From Spirochaetales bacterium (lineage in GTDB: Bacteria > Spirochaetota > Spirochaetia > Treponematales > UBA12059): a DNA stretch of 64,000 nucleotides. The translations under genes and the position numbers were made by a program. Location of the stretch: the NCBI GenBank assembly GCA_016926955.1, contig JAFGNN010000030.1, positions 62,001 through 126,000 of the forward strand, in the 5' to 3' direction. Below the pieces are notes generated by a model. It saw only the letters and a list, made by a program, of their open reading frames with translations. It was not told the DNA's origin and searched no databases. This document shows positions 8,576-31,100 of the stretch, in pieces (position 1 is the first letter of the stretch; each line of letters starts with the position of its first letter).

Positions 8576-9919
8576 TCAGGCGCCTTCGATCCCCTGTTGG
8601 CCGACCGCTGTCTCGGCGATCTTCCTGACTTTGAGGTACTCGGTATTGAGCCGCGACATGCGCAGGTTCAGCCTGGCCAGGCGCTGCGCCAGCAGGCGCG
8701 CCAGGTAGATGCCGTAGTGCGGGTTGTCCTTGATCAGGTTGACGAAGTCCTGCTTCGAAATGCGGATCAAGGTGCTCTTTCCCTTTGACACTACCGTCGC
8801 GGAGCGTCGGTTGGAGAGCAGGAAGCTCATCTCGCCCATGAACATGTCGTCAGGGGTGAGCGCGGAAACCAGCTTGCCCTTCGCGTAGACGTGCAGCCGG
8901 CCGGAGACGATGTAGTACAGGAAGTCGCTCGCCTCTCCCTCGGAGCAGATGTACTGGCCGTCCTGGAAATTCATCTCAAGCGCGCTCTCGAAGATAGCGG
9001 GGATGACGTTCGACTGGGCCACCTGGTGGTCGATCTCGAAGCTTACTTCGTTGCCCTTCTCGTTGTAGGCAAGGTTCTTCACGTAGATGCCGGCCATGCG
9101 CATGCCCATGCCGTGGAGCCCCGGTTCGGCGGGATCCGCGGCGATGCGGCTTCGCCAGTCGAAGCCGTCGCCCTCGTCGCGGATGGTGAAGCGCGACCAC
9201 TCCGGCATGATCGTATAGGTGAAGTAGACCTTTCGGGTCCGCACCTCGGCGTCGCGATTCTTCTCCCGGATCAGGTCCATGATGTCGCGGTTCTTCTCGA
9301 GCCAGGCGCTCTTCTCTTCGAAGGAGATCTTGCAGTTGCCGTGCTCGATGGCGTTGATCAGCAGCTCGAGCAGCGCGACATGGAGCTTCTCCTTCATTTC
9401 GCGGTCGATCAAGTTGGCGTTGTAGAGGTAGTTGGTGACCAGGTTCGAGTACGTGGTGATGTCGAGCGGCTCGTTGTCGATGACGAAGGAGCCGGAGATG
9501 CTCTTGATCAGGTGCTGCTGGATGCCGCGCTGGAAGAGGATCTGCTTGTTCTGCCGGACGATTTTCAGGAGGCGCTGGAAGCCGGCGGCCAGCTCGCGCT
9601 TCTTGAGCATCGCGATGACGTTCTGGTCGCGCATGGACTCGCGCAGGTCCTTCTCGTCCAGCTGGTCGTGGATGGCCACGATGCCGCCGTAGTGGAGCCA
9701 GGGGTCGCGCCGTATCTCCTCGAGGACGGCCATCGCGTCCACCTTCGGGTCGGAGAAGCAGATGACCTTCATGTCCGGCAGTTCGTACTTGAGGAATTCG
9801 ATGACGGAAGAGCCGTCGCTGAAGAAGACCGGTTCGAATTCGCCGCCGAAGGCTGCGCACTGGGCCTCGATGAAGCGATTGAGTTGCTCGTCCGAGGAAA
9901 TGACGGGGAATTTTCTCAC
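8576..9919 (-). CDS. Receiver-like / HATPase / cyclic-nucleotide-binding regulator
   Basis: 447-residue cytosolic regulator with three parts. Residues 1-115 look like a divergent receiver domain. Residues about 165-300 form an anti-sigma-type HATPase domain (N-box LLELLINAIEHGN, G-box DEGDGFDW, then LHGMGMRM). Residues about 310-430 form a cNMP-binding domain (GEASDFLYYIVSGRLHVY, FMGEMSFLLSNRRSATV). In the cNMP cassette, GEMSFLLSNRRSATV matches the phosphate-binding cassette with its key Glu and Arg. The combination suggests a cyclic-nucleotide-modulated protein-serine kinase or sigma-factor switch, but no partner anti-anti-sigma gene is adjacent. It faces the crtI gene tail to tail with 1 nt between them. 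Confidence 0.85.
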   Translation of the reverse strand: MRKFPVISSDEQLNRFIEAQCAAFGGEFEPVFFSDGSSVIEFLKYELPDMKVICFSDPKVDAMAVLEEIRRDPWLHYGGIVAIHDQLDEKDLRESMRDQNVIAMLKKRELAAGFQRLLKIVRQNKQILFQRGIQQHLIKSISGSFVIDNEPLDITTYSNLVTNYLYNANLIDREMKEKLHVALLELLINAIEHGNCKISFEEKSAWLEKNRDIMDLIREKNRDAEVRTRKVYFTYTIMPEWSRFTIRDEGDGFDWRSRIAADPAEPGLHGMGMRMAGIYVKNLAYNEKGNEVSFEIDHQVAQSNVIPAIFESALEMNFQDGQYICSEGEASDFLYYIVSGRLHVYAKGKLVSALTPDDMFMGEMSFLLSNRRSATVVSKGKSTLIRISKQDFVNLIKDNPHYGIYLARLLAQRLARLNLRMSRLNTEYLKVRKIAETAVGQQGIEGA

Positions 9920-22876: not shown

Positions 22877-24097
22877 ATGCGATTCATCCATGCCTCAGAC
22901 CTCCATTTGGGAAGGACGCTCCGCGAACGCCCGCTCCGCGACGAGCAGGCCGCCATGCTGGATGCCTTATCCGCGGCTGCCCGGGATGCGACGGTGGCAG
23001 CGCTCGTGATCGCGGGCGACATATATGACCGGGGCGTGCCTCCGCCTGAAGCTGTCGCCTTGCTGGACGGCTTCCTGGCGGGCCTCAGGATCGATCGCCC
23101 CGATCTGGTGATCATCGCTATCCCGGGCAACCATGATTCGGCCGCCCGGCTCTCCTTCGGCGCCCGGCTCTTCGAGGGTGCGGGCGTACATATCAGGACT
23201 GACGCGGAATCGTGCGTCCTGCCCGTCGTTGTAGAGCGCGACGGGGAACGGGCCGCGTTCTGGCCCCTGCCCTTCCTGACGCCGGGTTGTCTGCCGCCGG
23301 ATTTCGGGCGGCAGGCTCCGGAGGGACGCGCCGGAGCGGCGCTCGGGGAGCTCGATTTCGGCGAGGCTCCGCCCGAACGGCTGCGTTCGCAGGAGGACCT
23401 GTGCGCCACGGCAGTCTCCGCGATCGTTCGAAGGCTCGAGCCGGGCAGGTCCAACATCCTGGTCGCCCACCTGTTCGCCCGTGGCGGGGCCGCGAGCGAA
23501 TCGGAGCGCGCCTTCGTCGGAGCCGCGGAGCAGGTGGACGCGGGACTTTTCGACGCGTTCGATTATGCGGCCCTCGGCCATCTGCACCGCCCGCAGGCGG
23601 CCGGCGCGAAAGGACGCTATTCCGGGGCGCCCTTGGCCTACTCGTTCGACGAGTCCGGACAGGAGCGGGGTTTCCTGGTCGTGGATGTCGAACCACTCGC
23701 GCCCGCGAAGGTCCAGTTCGTCCCTGTCGTCCCGATCCGGGCCCTCAGGCGCATCGTCGGAACGTGGGACGAGATCATGTCCGCGGCCGCGCGGGACCAG
23801 AATCCCGACGATTTCATCGAAGCGGTGATCGAGGATCCGGCGCCGGTTCTGAATCCGGTGGAACGCCTGCGAGAGCGTTTGCCGAACCTTCTCTCCGTTC
23901 GGCAGGCGGCCTTCGAGTCGTCGGGGGGCGATGCCTCGGCGGGCCCCGTCCGGATGGAGCGCGCAGACGCCGCGGGCGTGCTTGACGATTTCCGGGCCTT
24001 CCACCGCGAGGTTCTTGGGACGGAAGTGGAAGCCGATGCGCTCGCGTTGATGACCGGCTTGGTCGAGGAGGCGGAGCGTGCGGCCCGTCAGGCTTAA
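22877..24097 (+). CDS. sbcD: Exonuclease subunit SbcD
   Basis: Mre11-type nuclease subunit of the SbcCD complex, which opens hairpins and processes double-strand breaks in a Mn- and ATP-dependent way. 406 residues with the metallophosphoesterase motifs in order: DLHLGR (8-13), GDIYDRG, GNHD, then VAHLF and GHLHRPQ. The C-terminal part carries the capping domain. sbcC starts within its last codons (20-nt overlap). No ribosome binding site is evident, in line with a very short leader. Confidence 0.95.
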   Translation: MRFIHASDLHLGRTLRERPLRDEQAAMLDALSAAARDATVAALVIAGDIYDRGVPPPEAVALLDGFLAGLRIDRPDLVIIAIPGNHDSAARLSFGARLFEGAGVHIRTDAESCVLPVVVERDGERAAFWPLPFLTPGCLPPDFGRQAPEGRAGAALGELDFGEAPPERLRSQEDLCATAVSAIVRRLEPGRSNILVAHLFARGGAASESERAFVGAAEQVDAGLFDAFDYAALGHLHRPQAAGAKGRYSGAPLAYSFDESGQERGFLVVDVEPLAPAKVQFVPVVPIRALRRIVGTWDEIMSAAARDQNPDDFIEAVIEDPAPVLNPVERLRERLPNLLSVRQAAFESSGGDASAGPVRMERADAAGVLDDFRAFHREVLGTEVEADALALMTGLVEEAERAARQA

Positions 24098-27083
24098 GCT
24101 CGAGAATTTCGGACCTTACCGCGCCCCGGCCGAAGTCGACTTCGAAAAGCTCGGCGGCTTGTTCCTGGTGCACGGAAAGACCGGATCCGGAAAGACCACC
24201 CTGTTCGACGCCATGACTTACGCGCTCTACGGCAAGGCGCCCGGGGCGCGGAGCAGCCTCGAAAGCCAGCTTGCCTCCCATTGGGCCGAACCCGGAGAGG
24301 CGTCGAGCGTTTCGTTCGAATTCATCGTCGGGGGACGGCGTTACCTGGCCGAAAGGAATCCGCCGTCGCGACGGGTAAAGCGCAACGGCGAGATGGATTT
24401 GACGCCGCCATCCGCGACGCTTTCGAGATTCGAGGACGGGGGATGGAAGCCGATCGCGTCCAAGGTTTCCGAAGCCGGCGCCGCGGCCGCCGGGCTGCTC
24501 GGCCTGAGCGCCGATGAATTCTCGAAGGTCGTGCTCTTGCCGCAGGGAGAATTCCAGCGCTTCCTCGAGATGGGCAGCAAGGATCGCACCGCCGTGCTCG
24601 AGAAGCTGTTTCCCGTGGACCTGCACGAAACCACGACGAGCTTGGCGCGAGAAAAGGCAAAGGCGGCAGAGGAAGCCGCCGGGCTGGTCGGCGCGGCGTT
24701 GGCGAGAATCGCCGCGGAGGAACCGGAGGAAGGTGCCGAGGAGGCGCTCGCGACGCTTCGAGGCAGACTCGAACAGGCAGAAATCGGACGCCAGGCCGCC
24801 GCGGCGGAGGCGACCTTGCTCGCGCTCGCGCTCGAGGCGGCTCGCGCGAAGAGCGAGGCTCTCAAACGGGCCTCTGACGCACGCACAAGGTTGGAGGCAC
24901 TCGAAGCCGCCTCCGCTGAAATGGACGCGCTCGCGACCCGCCTTCAAGCCGCGCGGCGGGCCGCGGAAGCGGCGCCCGAGATCGCCGAGGCGCGGAGGAG
25001 CGCCGAAGAATCCGCTGCCGCCGAAGCACGTTTGGCGGGGCTTCGCGACGAAGCCCTCGCGGTCCAGTCGAACGAGGACGCCATCGCGGAGAGGCTTGCG
25101 GAATCCGCCAGGCTCGTGGAGCGGATCGCGGTTATTGACGGCGACATGGGCTCCATCGCGGCGGCGCTCGAAGCCTGGGACAGAGCGGCGCACCTGTCGG
25201 AACGGCGCCTGATGTCCGAGCGGCGGCTCAAGGCGGCCCAGGCACAGGCGGAATCGCGCGGCCACGCGCTCGTGTCCGCGGAGGACAGGCTCGCGACGCT
25301 CGCCGTTCCGGACGGAGAGGACGAGCGCCGGCAGTCGGCTTCCGAGGCGGCGCGGGCCGCGTACGAGGCCGCGCGCGACGCGAAGTTGCGCGCCGACGCG
25401 CTCGAGGCGGATCGGGTCGCTCTCGGCAGGGCCGTCGAAGCTTTGGCCAAGGCCGAAGCCGAGCGGTCGGAATCCCGCGATCGGCTGGCCGGACTCGATG
25501 CCCGCATCCAGGAAGCCGTCGCGCTCCGCGACGCCTCGGCGGCCGCGTTGCTCGCAGCGGGCTTGAGCTCCGGTTCGCCATGCCCCGTATGCGGATCGAC
25601 CGATCATCCTGCCCCTGCCAGACCGCTCGAAACGACGACGATCGACTCCGCTTCCTTCCGGGTGCTCGAAGCAGAGCGACGCGTGGCGATGGAACGCCAT
25701 TCGAGGGCCGCGGCAGAGCTTGACTCGCTCAAAGCCGCTGTCGAGAGGGGGAGGGCCGCCCTGGAGGAACGGGAAGGGCTCGACCCTGCCGCGGCCAGGG
25801 CTGCCTTCGAGGCGGCCGGGCGCGACGACGAGGCCGCCGCCGCTTCGCTCCGCGAACTCGCGTCGCTCCGGCGGCGTCGCGACGAGGCGTCGGTATCCGT
25901 CGAGGCCGCCCGCTCCGAACTGAAAGCGGCGAACGACAATCTCGCCGTCGAGCGCGAGACCTACGCCCGGCTGGACGCGGAAGCCGCCGAAAACGCGAAG
26001 GCGGCAGGGACGTTAGACCCTCGCCCGCGTCTTGAGGCGCTCCGGAAGGAGCGAGCCGACGCGGAGTCTCGCCGCGCAGGGCTGGAGGCGGAACGGGTAG
26101 CCCATATCGAGAAACGATCGCGGGTGGCCAGCGCCATCGAGGAGACGCTCGCCCGTACCGAAGCACTGCGCCAGCAGGCGGTCCGGGCGGCCGAGCGCCG
26201 GGATGCGGCGCTTGAGCGCTGCGGCTTCGACGGCGAAACGGCCGTCCTCGAGGCTTTCCTTCCGCCGGAAGGCATCCTGGCCCTGGAAAAGCGACGGAGC
26301 GCCTGGGATAGGGATCTGGCCGCGGCGCGCGCCGCCCTGGAGGAGGCACTCCGGTCGGCACAGGGTCCGATTCCGGACAGCGATGAAATCGCTGTCCGGC
26401 TCAGGGACGCTGAGGAACGCCGGGTCGCCGCGGAGCTCGCGAGGGACGCCGCGCGTGACGAGGTGTTCCGCCTGCGGGCGCTCGTCGACGACCGGGCTCG
26501 ACTTGAAGCCGAGCGGCAGGACCTCGACGCGCGACACGCCAGGCTCTCCAGCCTTTCCCAGCTGCTTTCCGGGACAATCAACCAACGGAGGCTGCCGTTC
26601 AAGAATTTCGCGCTCGGGGCATGGTTCCGCGCCGTGGTCGATCGCGCGAACCTCCGGCTCAGGGAGATGTCCGGGGGCCGCTACAGCCTCGCGGTGGAGG
26701 ATCAGGGGGGGCGCGGGTTCGGCGGACTCGATCTGGCCGTCCGGGATGCCTATACCGGTACCTCGCGCGCGACCGGCACCCTGTCCGGCGGCGAACGGTT
26801 CCTCGCCTCGGTCTCGCTCGCCCTCGGTCTCGCGGACGCGATCCGGGAACGTTCGGGCGGCGCCGCGCTCGAGGCGGTGTTCATCGACGAAGGCTTCGGA
26901 TCGTTGGACGAGGAAGCGCTCGACCGGGCCATCGCCGCGCTCGAGTCCATCAGGGGAGCGCGCATGATCGGCATCGTGTCCCATGTCGCGGCCTTGCGGT
27001 CGCGCGTGCCGTCGCGGATAGAGGTGCTTCGGGAGCGGGAGGGCTCCAGGATCGTCCTGGCCGAGGGTTTGGAGGAAGAATAG
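24078..27083 (+). CDS. sbcC: Exonuclease subunit SbcC
   Basis: Rad50-type SMC ATPase of SbcCD, 1001 residues, start codon GTG inside the sbcD end. Walker A GKTGSGKTT at residues 33-41, Q-loop region VLLPQGEFQRFLEM near 155, long alanine/glutamate/arginine-rich coiled coils, the zinc hook CPVC at Cys502 and Cys505, ABC signature LSGGE near 900 and Walker B VFIDEGFGSLD near 935. The domains are complete and in the expected order. Together with SbcD it repairs DNA in the cytoplasm. Confidence 0.95.
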   Translation: MRPVRLKLENFGPYRAPAEVDFEKLGGLFLVHGKTGSGKTTLFDAMTYALYGKAPGARSSLESQLASHWAEPGEASSVSFEFIVGGRRYLAERNPPSRRVKRNGEMDLTPPSATLSRFEDGGWKPIASKVSEAGAAAAGLLGLSADEFSKVVLLPQGEFQRFLEMGSKDRTAVLEKLFPVDLHETTTSLAREKAKAAEEAAGLVGAALARIAAEEPEEGAEEALATLRGRLEQAEIGRQAAAAEATLLALALEAARAKSEALKRASDARTRLEALEAASAEMDALATRLQAARRAAEAAPEIAEARRSAEESAAAEARLAGLRDEALAVQSNEDAIAERLAESARLVERIAVIDGDMGSIAAALEAWDRAAHLSERRLMSERRLKAAQAQAESRGHALVSAEDRLATLAVPDGEDERRQSASEAARAAYEAARDAKLRADALEADRVALGRAVEALAKAEAERSESRDRLAGLDARIQEAVALRDASAAALLAAGLSSGSPCPVCGSTDHPAPARPLETTTIDSASFRVLEAERRVAMERHSRAAAELDSLKAAVERGRAALEEREGLDPAAARAAFEAAGRDDEAAAASLRELASLRRRRDEASVSVEAARSELKAANDNLAVERETYARLDAEAAENAKAAGTLDPRPRLEALRKERADAESRRAGLEAERVAHIEKRSRVASAIEETLARTEALRQQAVRAAERRDAALERCGFDGETAVLEAFLPPEGILALEKRRSAWDRDLAAARAALEEALRSAQGPIPDSDEIAVRLRDAEERRVAAELARDAARDEVFRLRALVDDRARLEAERQDLDARHARLSSLSQLLSGTINQRRLPFKNFALGAWFRAVVDRANLRLREMSGGRYSLAVEDQGGRGFGGLDLAVRDAYTGTSRATGTLSGGERFLASVSLALGLADAIRERSGGAALEAVFIDEGFGSLDEEALDRAIAALESIRGARMIGIVSHVAALRSRVPSRIEVLREREGSRIVLAEGLEEE

Positions 27084-27136: not shown

Positions 27137-28087
27137 TCAGGCCTGGTCGAGGAAACGGCGTGAAACCAGTATCTCGTGGCCCTCGAACGCTGCGGCGGGC
27201 AGGAAGATGTCGGAGAGCTGCGGCAGAAGGGCATCCGCGCAGGAGAGCGACAAGGTTATGCGTCCGTCATGGCCGCCGCGGTTTGCCAGGTGGAAGATGA
27301 AATTCACGTCTTCAGAGACGACCGTGCCGGTCGATCCCGGCGGACGCCAGGGCGCCCTGCCCGCGTGGAAGGCGAAGCGGAACGTGAGCGGTACTTCCAG
27401 CTTGAAGACTTCGTAGCCTACGAGGGCGCGGTCGAGCAGCAATTCGAAGGCGGCCAGCACGGGAGAATCCGAAAGGTCCCGCGGGGGAAACACGAGGAGC
27501 AGGCCGTGCGAATCCAGGATCCAGGCTTTGCCGTCGATGCCCTCCGCTATCTCGGCCATGTGGGCCGCGAAGGCTTCCTTGAGCTTTGCCAGGCGCTTTT
27601 CCCCGATCGCCTCGCGAAGGCGCTCGGCCTCCCCGATCGCGGCGTGGCAAAACAGGAAGTCGTATTCCTTGCCCTCGCGGAGCTTGGCCCAGCCCGGGAA
27701 GCTCCGCGCTTGCTCCGGTTCAGGAACCTCGTCATCACGATGAGCCCTCGCCAGCGCGCAGCGCAGCCTCGTTTCGCTCGCCGGCAGCACGCCCGGGCCG
27801 AGGTAGTCGCCCGCGCCGGCGAAGAAGAGGGCGGCCGGATCCTCGATTGCCCCGTCCGGATCGAGGACGCCCCACGCGACGCCGGGTTTCCCCGCGATCC
27901 AGGCGACGGCCTCGTGGAGCGCCCCCTTTTCGACGCCGCGGGCGTCCAGGTACACGAAGCGGTCGGCCCGACGCTCGACCGTACGCTTGAGGCTGGAGAT
28001 CGCCAGGGTCTCCACTTCCACCTTCGGCGGGAAGAGCTCCGCCCAATCGCAGGCGCCGGCGTAGCCGCCGTATATGACGATCCTCAC
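27137..28087 (-). CDS. Receiver-like plus divergent cyclase-like protein
   Basis: 316 residues, unknown role. The first about 100 residues read like a degenerate receiver fold (MRIVIYGG start, then AWGVLDPDGAIEDPAALFF and AGDYLGPGVL). Residues about 140-310 resemble a class III nucleotide cyclase homology domain. The similar parts are WILDSHGLLLVFP where cyclases have the G-D-G strand, then FRFAFHAGR and GTVVSEDVNFIFHLANRGG, and ITLS. The metal-binding Asp of GDG is replaced (SHG), so it is probably not catalytic alone. Start GTG at 28087 overlaps the upstream stop (GTGA), with GGAGG nearby. Likely forms a pair with the next gene product. Assignment is by eye. Confidence 0.6.
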   Translation of the reverse strand: MRIVIYGGYAGACDWAELFPPKVEVETLAISSLKRTVERRADRFVYLDARGVEKGALHEAVAWIAGKPGVAWGVLDPDGAIEDPAALFFAGAGDYLGPGVLPASETRLRCALARAHRDDEVPEPEQARSFPGWAKLREGKEYDFLFCHAAIGEAERLREAIGEKRLAKLKEAFAAHMAEIAEGIDGKAWILDSHGLLLVFPPRDLSDSPVLAAFELLLDRALVGYEVFKLEVPLTFRFAFHAGRAPWRPPGSTGTVVSEDVNFIFHLANRGGHDGRITLSLSCADALLPQLSDIFLPAAAFEGHEILVSRRFLDQA

Positions 28088-29010
28088 GCGCCCTCCAGCT
28101 TGACGGTATAGCCGTAGACCGACCAGGCGTTCTTGGCTTCGATCGGCTTGAACCGTTCGAAGAGGACACGGTCGAGGGTCGGCGCGACCGCCGCGGAGAT
28201 CACCAGCCAATCCGGCGGGGCGCAATGCTCCTCGAGTTCGACGGCTTCCTTGCAGGTTTCCTGCCTGCGGATTTCGACCTGGTCCTCGGAGAATCGGAGG
28301 GGGCCGGTATGGACGGCGGAACGGATTCGGAGCGCTTCCTCGAGCGGATTGTCGAAGCGGTTGTAGAGGAAAAGGTCGTGGAGCAAAGCCATGCCGGCCA
28401 GCGTGGCGGAAGTGGTCGCGTGGCCGAAGAGGAAGGCGGCGAGCGCTCCGTCCCCTTCCCAGGCCCAGATCCGGCCGCCGCGGTCCTCGACCGAACGGGT
28501 CAGCATCTCGCGAAGATCCGCGAACGCGCGGCGGACCTCCGTCGGCTTGTGGGTCCGTACCAGTCGGGAGTTCCGCGCGATGTCGATGCGGAGCAGCGAA
28601 TAGCGCCGCTCCTCGCCCGGCAGGACCCGTCCCCAATTGGCGGTCCTGCGCATGCGCGGATCTTCCATGAACATCGAGGTGTGCTGGTCCCACGTGAATC
28701 CTTCGAGGCCGATCTGGTGGAACAGTTCCCGCAGCTGCGGGATCGGATAGCTGCGGCCCATGAAGCCGGATTTCTCGAGGCGTACAAAGAGCTCGATGAG
28801 TTCGAGGAAGCGGTCGCGGCGCAAGGCGTCGTCGACGATGACCTGGGCGGATATCTGCGGCGGGATCGGAACCGTGGCGGGAAAGCCGGTCGCTTCGTGG
28901 AGGTCGTAGCCCTGGAACAACTCCCTGGCAAGCTTGTGGTGCAGCTCGGGGGGCACCGATTCGAGGAGAGTTCGTCTGGACAGCTGGACCAGTTCCTTCC
29001 TGACTTTCAT
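28084..29010 (-). CDS. Divergent class III cyclase-like protein
   Basis: 308 residues. The N-terminal 135 residues are helical and unassigned (ELVQLSRRTLLESVPPELHHKL). The C-terminal half matches the outline of a class III adenylate/guanylate cyclase domain. LLRIDIARNSRLVRT holds a possible first metal Asp, WAWEGDGALAAFLFG the second (GDG), and IRSAVHTGPL corresponds to the R-x-G-x-H-x-G strand. Both metal-ligand candidates survive here, whereas the partner gene lacks one. Known cyclases work as dimers, so a heterodimer of one metal-competent and one degenerate chain is conceivable (inference). It precedes its partner with a 4-nt overlap. Confidence 0.6.
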   Translation of the reverse strand: MKVRKELVQLSRRTLLESVPPELHHKLARELFQGYDLHEATGFPATVPIPPQISAQVIVDDALRRDRFLELIELFVRLEKSGFMGRSYPIPQLRELFHQIGLEGFTWDQHTSMFMEDPRMRRTANWGRVLPGEERRYSLLRIDIARNSRLVRTHKPTEVRRAFADLREMLTRSVEDRGGRIWAWEGDGALAAFLFGHATTSATLAGMALLHDLFLYNRFDNPLEEALRIRSAVHTGPLRFSEDQVEIRRQETCKEAVELEEHCAPPDWLVISAAVAPTLDRVLFERFKPIEAKNAWSVYGYTVKLEGA

Positions 29011-29142: not shown

Positions 29143-29943
29143 TCACCCGTAGGAATGGAGGCCCGGCAACAGGTAATTGACCCCGAAAAAGGTGAAGAGG
29201 GCGCAGAGGAAGCCGGCAATCGCGAAAACCGCAGGCCATGAGTCCTTGCGCTTCCTGACGAGTCGAAGATGCAGGTAGGCGGTGTAAGTCAGCCAGGTCA
29301 CCAAGGCCCAGGTCTCCTTCGGGTCCCAGCTCCACCAGCGTCCCCAGGCTTTTTCGGCCCAGATCGCGCCGAAAACGAGGGCCCCCGCGGTGAATAGCGG
29401 GTAGCCGAGGGCGATGGCGGTATACACGACGCGATCGAGCTCGACACGCCGGGCGGGGTCTTTCGCGAAGAGGAAGAGTATCGCGGCGACGAAGGATGCC
29501 ACGAAAAACGCTTCGCCGACGAAGGCGAAGCCGACGTGGAGGACCAGCCAACCCGAACGCAGCGCGGGAATGGGCGGCAGGGCCTCAGTGGAGACGAGCG
29601 GCGACGACGCGATGGAAAGCATGACGATGGCGGCCAGTACGATGCCGAAACCGATGCCGGGCCTGTAGGCGGGTTTTCCGCGCAGCCGCCAGGCGAAAAC
29701 CATGAATCCGAGCGCGGCGGCCCAGAACGACAGCGATTCCCAAATGCCCGTCAGCGCGATGAAGGATATCCGGATCGACCGGGCCGCGAGGGCGGCGACG
29801 AGGAGCGTCGATGCGACGAGCAGCATCCAGTGCGAGGCCGGATCCACGGCCCCGCGCCAGCGGAACAGCCAGGCGGCCTGCAGCGCGGCCGCGCACAGGA
29901 GCAGGGCGAACGCCAGGTTCGCAAGTGCGGCTCCGTCGGTCAT
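29143..29943 (-). CDS. ccsA: Cytochrome c biogenesis protein CcsA/ResC
   Basis: 266-residue polytopic membrane protein of the heme-handling CcmC/CcsA family, with the haem-binding tryptophan-rich motif RWWSWDPKETWAL and about eight helices. With ResB it forms system II cytochrome c synthase, which attaches haem to CxxCH apocytochromes outside the membrane. The ATG overlaps the resB stop (ATGA). No c-type cytochrome or thiol-disulfide partner (ResA/CcdA) is in the window. Confidence 0.9.
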   Translation of the reverse strand: MTDGAALANLAFALLLCAAALQAAWLFRWRGAVDPASHWMLLVASTLLVAALAARSIRISFIALTGIWESLSFWAAALGFMVFAWRLRGKPAYRPGIGFGIVLAAIVMLSIASSPLVSTEALPPIPALRSGWLVLHVGFAFVGEAFFVASFVAAILFLFAKDPARRVELDRVVYTAIALGYPLFTAGALVFGAIWAEKAWGRWWSWDPKETWALVTWLTYTAYLHLRLVRKRKDSWPAVFAIAGFLCALFTFFGVNYLLPGLHSYG

Positions 29944-30845
29944 GTGGCCTCCTTCAGCTTGCCGAGGAAAGTCCAGGCGCTGCCGATGGCGACGAGCGCG
30001 AGCGCCGCGAGCGAGAGCGGGTAGGCGGGGTCGGATACCGCGTCAATCCTCGTGGCCAGGGTACGACGGAGCCCGGAAACTTCGAGCCCGTCCAGCGCGC
30101 CGCCTGCGGGTATGCGCAGGGTGCGGGCCTCGCGGCCGGGTTCCGTCGCGCGTATCAGGGCGTGGCCGGGATCGGGGCCCTCGGGATTCTCGACGCCCAG
30201 AAAGACGCGCGTCGCCTGACCGAAGGCGAGCTCGTCGCCCCTCGAGAGGCTGCGTTCCGCGCCCGCGGCGTCGATGACGACCAGGCTCCACTCGTCGACG
30301 AAGGCGCTCAGGTAAAACCCCAGGCCCGCGTGGCGAAGGGGCTTGTTGACGCGGAGCTCGTAATCCCGGACCAGGGCCTCGCCGTCCCTGGACAGGTCCA
30401 CGACCGCCACCCAGTCGTGAGGACGGCCGTCCGCGTAGGCTTCTTGGCGCATTTCCCGTAATGCGAGGACCGAGCCGTCGGGAAGGCGGGCTCCTTCGCC
30501 GGCTTCGATTGTCGCGGAGCGCTCCACGCGGCCGGACCAGGACCAGAGGCCGCCGACGACGAGGAGTACGAGGCCGAGGTGCAGGATGTCGGGGCCGAAG
30601 CGTTTTCCGTTTGCGGCGCGAAGCTGGCGGAGGAAACGGCGCGCGGCGCAGGTCGAGAGGTTGGCCAGGAAGATCAGGACCGGCACGAGGACGAAAAGGA
30701 TCGTGGCGGGCGGGCGGAAATTCCGGGCGCCTTCCCGGGCCGTTCCGGGCGGCAGCACGGTCGCGACGACGCCGGCGACCGACAGGTAGACGATCAGGCC
30801 TATGGCGAGTCTCATCGACGAGAGCGCATCCAGGAATCTTTTCAC
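29940..30845 (-). CDS. resB: Cytochrome c biogenesis protein ResB/Ccs1
   Basis: 301-residue ResB-like protein: helices at about 10-30 (MRLAIGLIVYLSVAGVVATVLP), 45-65 and 80-105, an extracytoplasmic beta-rich region (120-260) and a C-terminal helix (LSLAALALVAIGSAWTFLG). It is short compared with B. subtilis ResB. GTG at 30845 is chosen because AAAGGA lies 8 nt upstream; a GTG at 30878 is also open. First of the resB-ccsA pair; the cyclase-like genes follow 130 nt after ccsA on the same strand. Gap 30846-31100 holds no recognisable gene. Confidence 0.85.
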   Translation of the reverse strand: MKRFLDALSSMRLAIGLIVYLSVAGVVATVLPPGTAREGARNFRPPATILFVLVPVLIFLANLSTCAARRFLRQLRAANGKRFGPDILHLGLVLLVVGGLWSWSGRVERSATIEAGEGARLPDGSVLALREMRQEAYADGRPHDWVAVVDLSRDGEALVRDYELRVNKPLRHAGLGFYLSAFVDEWSLVVIDAAGAERSLSRGDELAFGQATRVFLGVENPEGPDPGHALIRATEPGREARTLRIPAGGALDGLEVSGLRRTLATRIDAVSDPAYPLSLAALALVAIGSAWTFLGKLKEAT

Positions 30846-31100
30846 GAACCGGATCCTTTCCCGCGGCTGACCCGACACGACGCGGGCACGCGCCGCGCCT
30901 GGCGGAGCTTTCCGGAAGGATACCCGCCGCGCCGGCCCTCGTCAATTTTGGCGGGTGCGTGCGGATTGACCGGTCGCGCGACAGCGTGGGGCCCGGATAG
31001 GCCGTGCCGGAGCGGCCGCTTCCCCCGTCAGCCCCAAACCGGCTATCTTTGAAAGCGCCGGGTCACGTTCCCGGACAATGACGGAGAGAAGGAGGCGCGC

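Follow-up and report, generated by a model that had tools for sequence, protein, structure and literature searches.

P1 and P2, the products of two adjacent genes in a Spirochaetales genome, are best read as partners in a class III nucleotidyl cyclase-like enzyme, a heterodimer with one composite active site between them. We estimate the probability of this reading at roughly two in three; heterodimer formation and catalysis are both inferred, and no complex was modelled. Each protein has kept a different half of one site, so the two half-dead cyclase-like proteins probably work only as a pair. Evolution, as far as it can be read from sequence comparison, supports the heterodimer well; experiment does not yet do so.

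Two overlapping genes with a class III cyclase fold

The genes lie in a 64,000-nucleotide stretch of DNA, called the window here. A preliminary description of the window had reported two ORFs sharing a GTGA at this locus, and the coordinates bear this out (Table 1). A GGAGG ribosome-binding site stands 4 nt 5' of the P2 GTG, inside the 3' end of P1, and AGGAA precedes the P1 ATG. Translational coupling would yield P1 and P2 in a 1:1 ratio. Compared with species of the same genus, dN/dS is 0.08-0.09 for P1, 0.065 for the cyclase half of P2 and 0.24 for its receiver. Purifying selection on P1 and on the P2 cyclase half is strong.

Table 1. Features of the P1/P2 locus, in window positions
Feature	Position	Strand	Description
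P1	28084-29010	-	308 aa, ATG start; N-terminal helical domain and metal-donating cyclase half (C1-like)
P1 residues 1-125	28636-29010	-	Helical domain with beta-hairpin
P1 residues 131-302	28105-28620	-	Predicted class III cyclase fold
P1 Asp143	28582-28584	-	First metal Asp; kept in 82/82 core and 31/31 diverged paired P1
P1 Asp187	28450-28452	-	Second metal Asp, in WEGDG; kept in 82/82 core and 31/31 diverged paired P1
GTGA	28084-28087	-	4-nt overlap of P1 stop and P2 start
P2	27137-28087	-	316 aa, GTG start; pseudo-receiver and metal-less cyclase half (C2-like)
P2 residues 1-119	27731-28087	-	Degenerate receiver that retains Asp48 but neither the acidic pair nor the Lys
P2 residues 135-310	27158-27685	-	Predicted class III cyclase fold without metal ligands
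P2 Asn262	27302-27304	-	Equivalent of the transition-state Asn; invariant, 107/107 scorable P2
P2 His266	27290-27292	-	At the position of the transition-state Arg; invariant, 107/107 scorable P2

Searches of Pfam and NCBIfam gave no match above cut-off for P1 or P2, and for these two sequences the earlier statement that they have no clear family holds. PF00211 finds 14 ordinary class III cyclase domains in the source genome, P1 and P2 not among them. Its gathering score of 21.9 bits is passed by two relatives, the solo protein of locus L200 (23.4) and the P1 of locus L221 (22.1). Sub-cut-off matches to Acetyltransf_6 (nine P1 relatives), dCache_1 (P2) and NCBIfam NMCC_0638 were at odds with the structure models and were rejected.

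A profile of P1 orthologues matched solved class III cyclases (3mr7, E=1.7e-6; Ma1120, E~1e-4). The AF2 models were confident, with a pLDDT of 94 for P1 and 91 for P2. In Foldseek the P1 model matched Ma1120 (TMt 0.77-0.82) and CyaC (TMt 0.67-0.73), while the P2 model matched Ma1120 (TMt mostly 0.70-0.76), CyaC and other class III cyclases. On these models and profiles a class III cyclase fold is present in both chains. The cyclase motifs quoted in the preliminary description were found in both ORFs and, given these matches, are not due to chance; structure prediction, which could have refuted the assignment, returned the fold for P1 and P2 alike. Homology between the two cyclase halves (hhalign 99.2%, E=2.6e-19) extends into a conserved Trp/Gly stretch just ahead of the cyclase domain, and by profile alignment both halves are also homologous to the canonical cyclases of the source genome.

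The N-termini differ between the two proteins. The helical domain of P1 matched no known family and occurs once in the source genome. P2 carries a receiver at this end in place of a helical domain; the receiver is degenerate in the lineage of the window and still intact in some diverged relatives. Its N-terminal profile matches the receiver 8svz (E=9e-4), and the AF2 model has a receiver fold. Within the window lineage Asp48 is retained in 63 of 69 P2 sequences, and the acidic pair and Lys are gone; phosphorylation control of P2 is therefore unlikely there. The degenerate receiver-like N-terminus proposed earlier for P2 is thus confirmed. Diverged P2 proteins from three loci (L221, L222 and L227) have a seemingly complete receiver (L221 scores 79.6 bits with Pfam Response_reg) joined to a cyclase half without the first metal Asp. 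These are apparent response regulators with half an active site as output.

Active-site residues divided between P1 and P2

A class III active site is made of two metal-binding Asp from one chain and an N-x-x-x-R motif from the other. We mapped these positions by profile alignment to the canonical cyclases of the source genome and to 3mr7. As had been proposed, P1 retains both metal Asp, and it has Lys254 and Glu258 where N-x-x-x-R would have its Asn and Arg. P2 has Ala150 and His194 at the first and second metal positions; two profile alignments agree on Ala150 rather than His148 for the first. The preliminary description was correct that the P2 metal site is degenerate and mistaken that only one Asp had been lost, as both are gone in the window protein. 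At the other half of the site, P2 reads N-x-x-x-H, with Asn262 at the Asn position and His266 where Arg would be expected.

The same division is seen in the relatives. Both Asp are present in 113 of 113 paired P1 proteins, with the Asn surviving in only two. N-x-x-x-H is found in all 107 scorable paired P2 proteins, and the first metal Asp is left in one of 108 and never present in diverged P2. An Asp remains at the second position in 40 of the 108, including 23 of 31 diverged P2, and the split is therefore cleanest at the first metal site. In 69 P2 sequences that share 20-84% identity with the window protein, just four columns never vary: D94, W189, N262 and H266. The suggestion that a metal-competent and a degenerate protein might together recall heterodimeric cyclases is supported by these complementary residues, P2 being without the metal Asp but with the Asn and His that P1 lacks; that the two form a heterodimer and catalyze a reaction remains an inference.

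In the proposed enzyme, P1 would contribute Asp143 and Asp187 at a P1:P2 interface and P2 would contribute Asn262 and His266, the counterparts of the transition-state motif. An NTP would be turned over to a cyclic nucleotide at this composite site, a step inferred from the residues. The second, pseudo-symmetric site (Lys254 and Glu258 of P1 with Ala150 and His194 of P2) would be dead and could be regulatory.

The base pocket is unusual. Neither P1 nor P2 nor the solo proteins described below have the base-selecting Lys; its position is taken by Met or Ile in P2 and by Ser, Asn and others in P1. The second base-selecting position is Thr in 46 of 77 core P2, as in some canonical cyclases of the source genome. 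P1/P2 thus have no purine-selecting pair of the Lys/Asp, Lys/Thr or Glu/Cys type. Asn and Arg are the transition-state residues of the family, with a natural exception in Ma1120, which has Ala for Asn (PMC4215837). Without the Lys, and with His standing where Arg should be, neither turnover nor substrate can be taken for granted, and these two departures leave open whether P1 and P2 belong to an enzymatically active cyclase family.

Distribution of the pair and its undivided relatives

To judge by the genomes compared, P1 and P2 almost always occur together. Of 23 genomes of the bacterial family, 21 gave a P1 match and 20 a P2 match; the P1 count includes one genome (G021) whose match is merely an ordinary cyclase. 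P2 follows P1 on the same strand in all 20 family loci examined, and in most of them the genes overlap by 4 nt. Scanning GTDB as a whole yielded 167 relatives, of which the best 80 were taken for locus inspection. In all 80, P2 lies directly downstream and co-oriented, the offset being -4 in 46; all 80 are spirochaetal by record title. An order-wide sample of 294 genomes held a strong P1 in 57 and a strong P2 in 58, with 57 common to both, and the single unmatched P2 sits at a contig edge. The pairing is accordingly conserved in relatives by each of these counts (20/20 and 80/80 loci, 57/58 genomes), and its absence there would have counted against the original proposal. Named isolates with the pair include Breznakiella homolactica and Candidatus Marispirochaeta associata. 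Two MAG records bearing the pair (L073 and L091) are titled Treponema denticola and Borreliella garinii, titles that look like automatic bin mislabels. Families f1, f4 and f5 possess P1. P1 is absent from all listed genomes of family f3 of the same order, one of them 1.1 Mb, an apparent lineage loss or absence.

The surroundings of the pair are not conserved. Upstream of it, and on its strand, are CcsA- and ResB-like genes (29143-30878, minus), the cytochrome c maturation genes that the preliminary description had noted beside the pair. A link to cytochrome c maturation is rejected: ccsA/resB adjoin the pair only within the same genus. No gene family flanks more than 10 of the 80 GTDB loci. 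From the other side SbcD/SbcC-like genes (22877-27083, plus) converge on the pair. A cyclic-nucleotide-binding domain (PF00027, 68 bits) is encoded at 8723-8974 of the window, minus strand. Its presence had been noted earlier but is no evidence, because the genome has 15 such domains.

When the whole phylum was searched, diverged homologues turned up in other spirochaete families. Of 60 loci inspected, 32 have the pair, one of which (L173) is a core pair, and 28 are unpaired. The 28 solo, one-chain relatives combine what P1 and P2 divide: both Asp are present in 28 of 28, Asn in 27, and His in 25, with Arg in one. Loci L181, L183-L187, L200, L208-L220 and others code for solo proteins with D, D, N and H and a common helical N-terminus. 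This solo spirochaete subfamily has a Trp before the usual Lys position and scores near or under the Pfam cut-off. One unpaired locus, L205 in genome G464, has the P1-type residues D, D, R and Q and no adjacent partner. It is the one solo protein without both Asn and His, and in the tree it groups with paired P1. It looks like a P1 parted from its partner, which may lie elsewhere in that genome.

Paired P1 all group in a single clade (SH-aLRT 91) within a clan that is separate from canonical cyclases (SH-aLRT 99). P2 is not recovered as a single clade with good support, and the tree resolves neither the P2 groups nor the clan's root. The pair may have originated by tandem duplication of a one-chain homodimer, a type still unpaired in other spirochaete families, after which each duplicate would have lost the opposite half of the active site. 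One such duplication followed by reciprocal loss is the simplest reading, the direction of evolution being inferred. The residue and pairing counts come from related sequences and are not independent events; their force rests on both halves being kept across deep divergence.

Other explanations and known heterodimeric cyclases

The main rival to an active heterodimer is a pair of pseudo-enzymes, that is, a heterodimer that binds metal and an NTP at the composite site, does not cyclize the NTP, and works as a sensor of nucleotides or a regulatory scaffold. We consider this unlikely but a serious contender. No member has the base-selecting Lys, Arg has become His, the receiver is degenerate in the window lineage, and the source genome, with its 14 ordinary cyclase domains, is already supplied. 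Weighing against a purely binding role, the four catalytic positions are strictly kept over two chains phylum-wide, and a mere binding site would not obviously require both Asn and His. The His, moreover, is already found in the solo one-chain relatives that keep everything.

It is improbable that P1 and P2 are merely co-transcribed and form two separate homo-oligomers, P1 a metal-binding homodimer and P2 a protein resembling a response regulator, with a cyclase half that is vestigial or acts as a dimerization module. Receiver domains are common self-dimerizing modules, P2 contains one, and each AF2 model is confident alone. However, a vestigial half would not hold N262 and H266 among four invariant columns, the P2 cyclase half is under tighter constraint than the receiver by dN/dS (0.065 < 0.24), and P1 and P2 are almost never found apart. 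A part in an anti-phage Pycsar-like system, with P1/P2 as a pyrimidine cyclase, is scarcely credible. PADLOC PycC models do match P1 (E=8e-6), but they match the canonical cyclases of the source genome far better (1e-29), so the P1 match is generic; nor is there an effector gene or other conserved neighbour, and the distribution is near single-copy and vertical-looking within one phylum. The heterodimeric cyclase-like enzyme thus remains the reading we prefer.

The mammalian membrane adenylyl cyclase is a C1/C2 pseudo-heterodimer in one chain, with the metal Asp from one half, N-x-x-x-R from the other and a degenerate second site. Like it, P1/P2 would have a single composite site with metal Asp and transition-state residues from different halves. 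Unlike it, they are two translationally coupled bacterial genes with no membrane domain, with His for Arg, no base-selecting Lys and a receiver-like domain on P2.

Heterodimeric arrangements of class III cyclases have been described (PMC12264004, PMC3591389), and those with a single site are known mainly from eukaryotes (PMC12264004). The fungal NeoR/RGC rhodopsin guanylyl cyclase has separate subunits and a single site, its metal-donating partner being without NxxxR (PMC12264004), as P1 is here. In that system the other partner has retained a metal Asp of its own and is capable of activity as a homodimer (RGC1), whereas nearly every P2 lacks the first metal Asp; there is also no relationship between the N-terminal domains. 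In soluble guanylate cyclase, homologous alpha and beta subunits form a heterodimer in which one site is active and the other a pseudo-site (PMC3591389), as proposed for P1/P2; it is a eukaryotic NO sensor, and none of its regulatory domains is found in P1/P2. The bacterial class III homodimers CyaC, Ma1120 and Silicibacter 3mr7 share the fold and motif layout but have the catalytic residues in one chain, and the solo spirochaete relatives are their counterparts. Pycsar PycC proteins (PMC11224242) have a class III-like fold and weak profile matches to P1, but are symmetric dimers with cyclic-pyrimidine effectors, and no effector lies beside P1/P2. The cyclase-like DUF2652 proteins are described from Actinobacteria, Bacteroidetes and Proteobacteria, with no mention of a spirochaete member or a heterodimer (PMC4886424). 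The arrangement proposed here is familiar from animals and fungi, and a bacterial two-gene heterodimeric class III cyclase was not found in the open-access full-text literature; subscription papers were not covered.

A fuller picture, for which we see an even balance of right and wrong, is of a phylum-wide spirochaetal two-gene heterodimeric cyclase with a composite Asn/His site, ancestrally receiver-gated, whose unusual base pocket perhaps makes it no ordinary ATP or GTP cyclase. Its undivided relatives in sister families would then be a before-and-after record of a C1/C2-type origin. The odd base pocket leaves the second messenger of P1/P2 open. Both proteins are small, soluble and co-expressible, and with one-chain and split two-gene forms in the same set of spirochaetes the origin of the asymmetry is directly testable. 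If the reading is true, the spirochaetes, already rich in cyclic-nucleotide signalling, have a further signalling enzyme that is unannotated and escapes Pfam and NCBIfam at their cut-offs.
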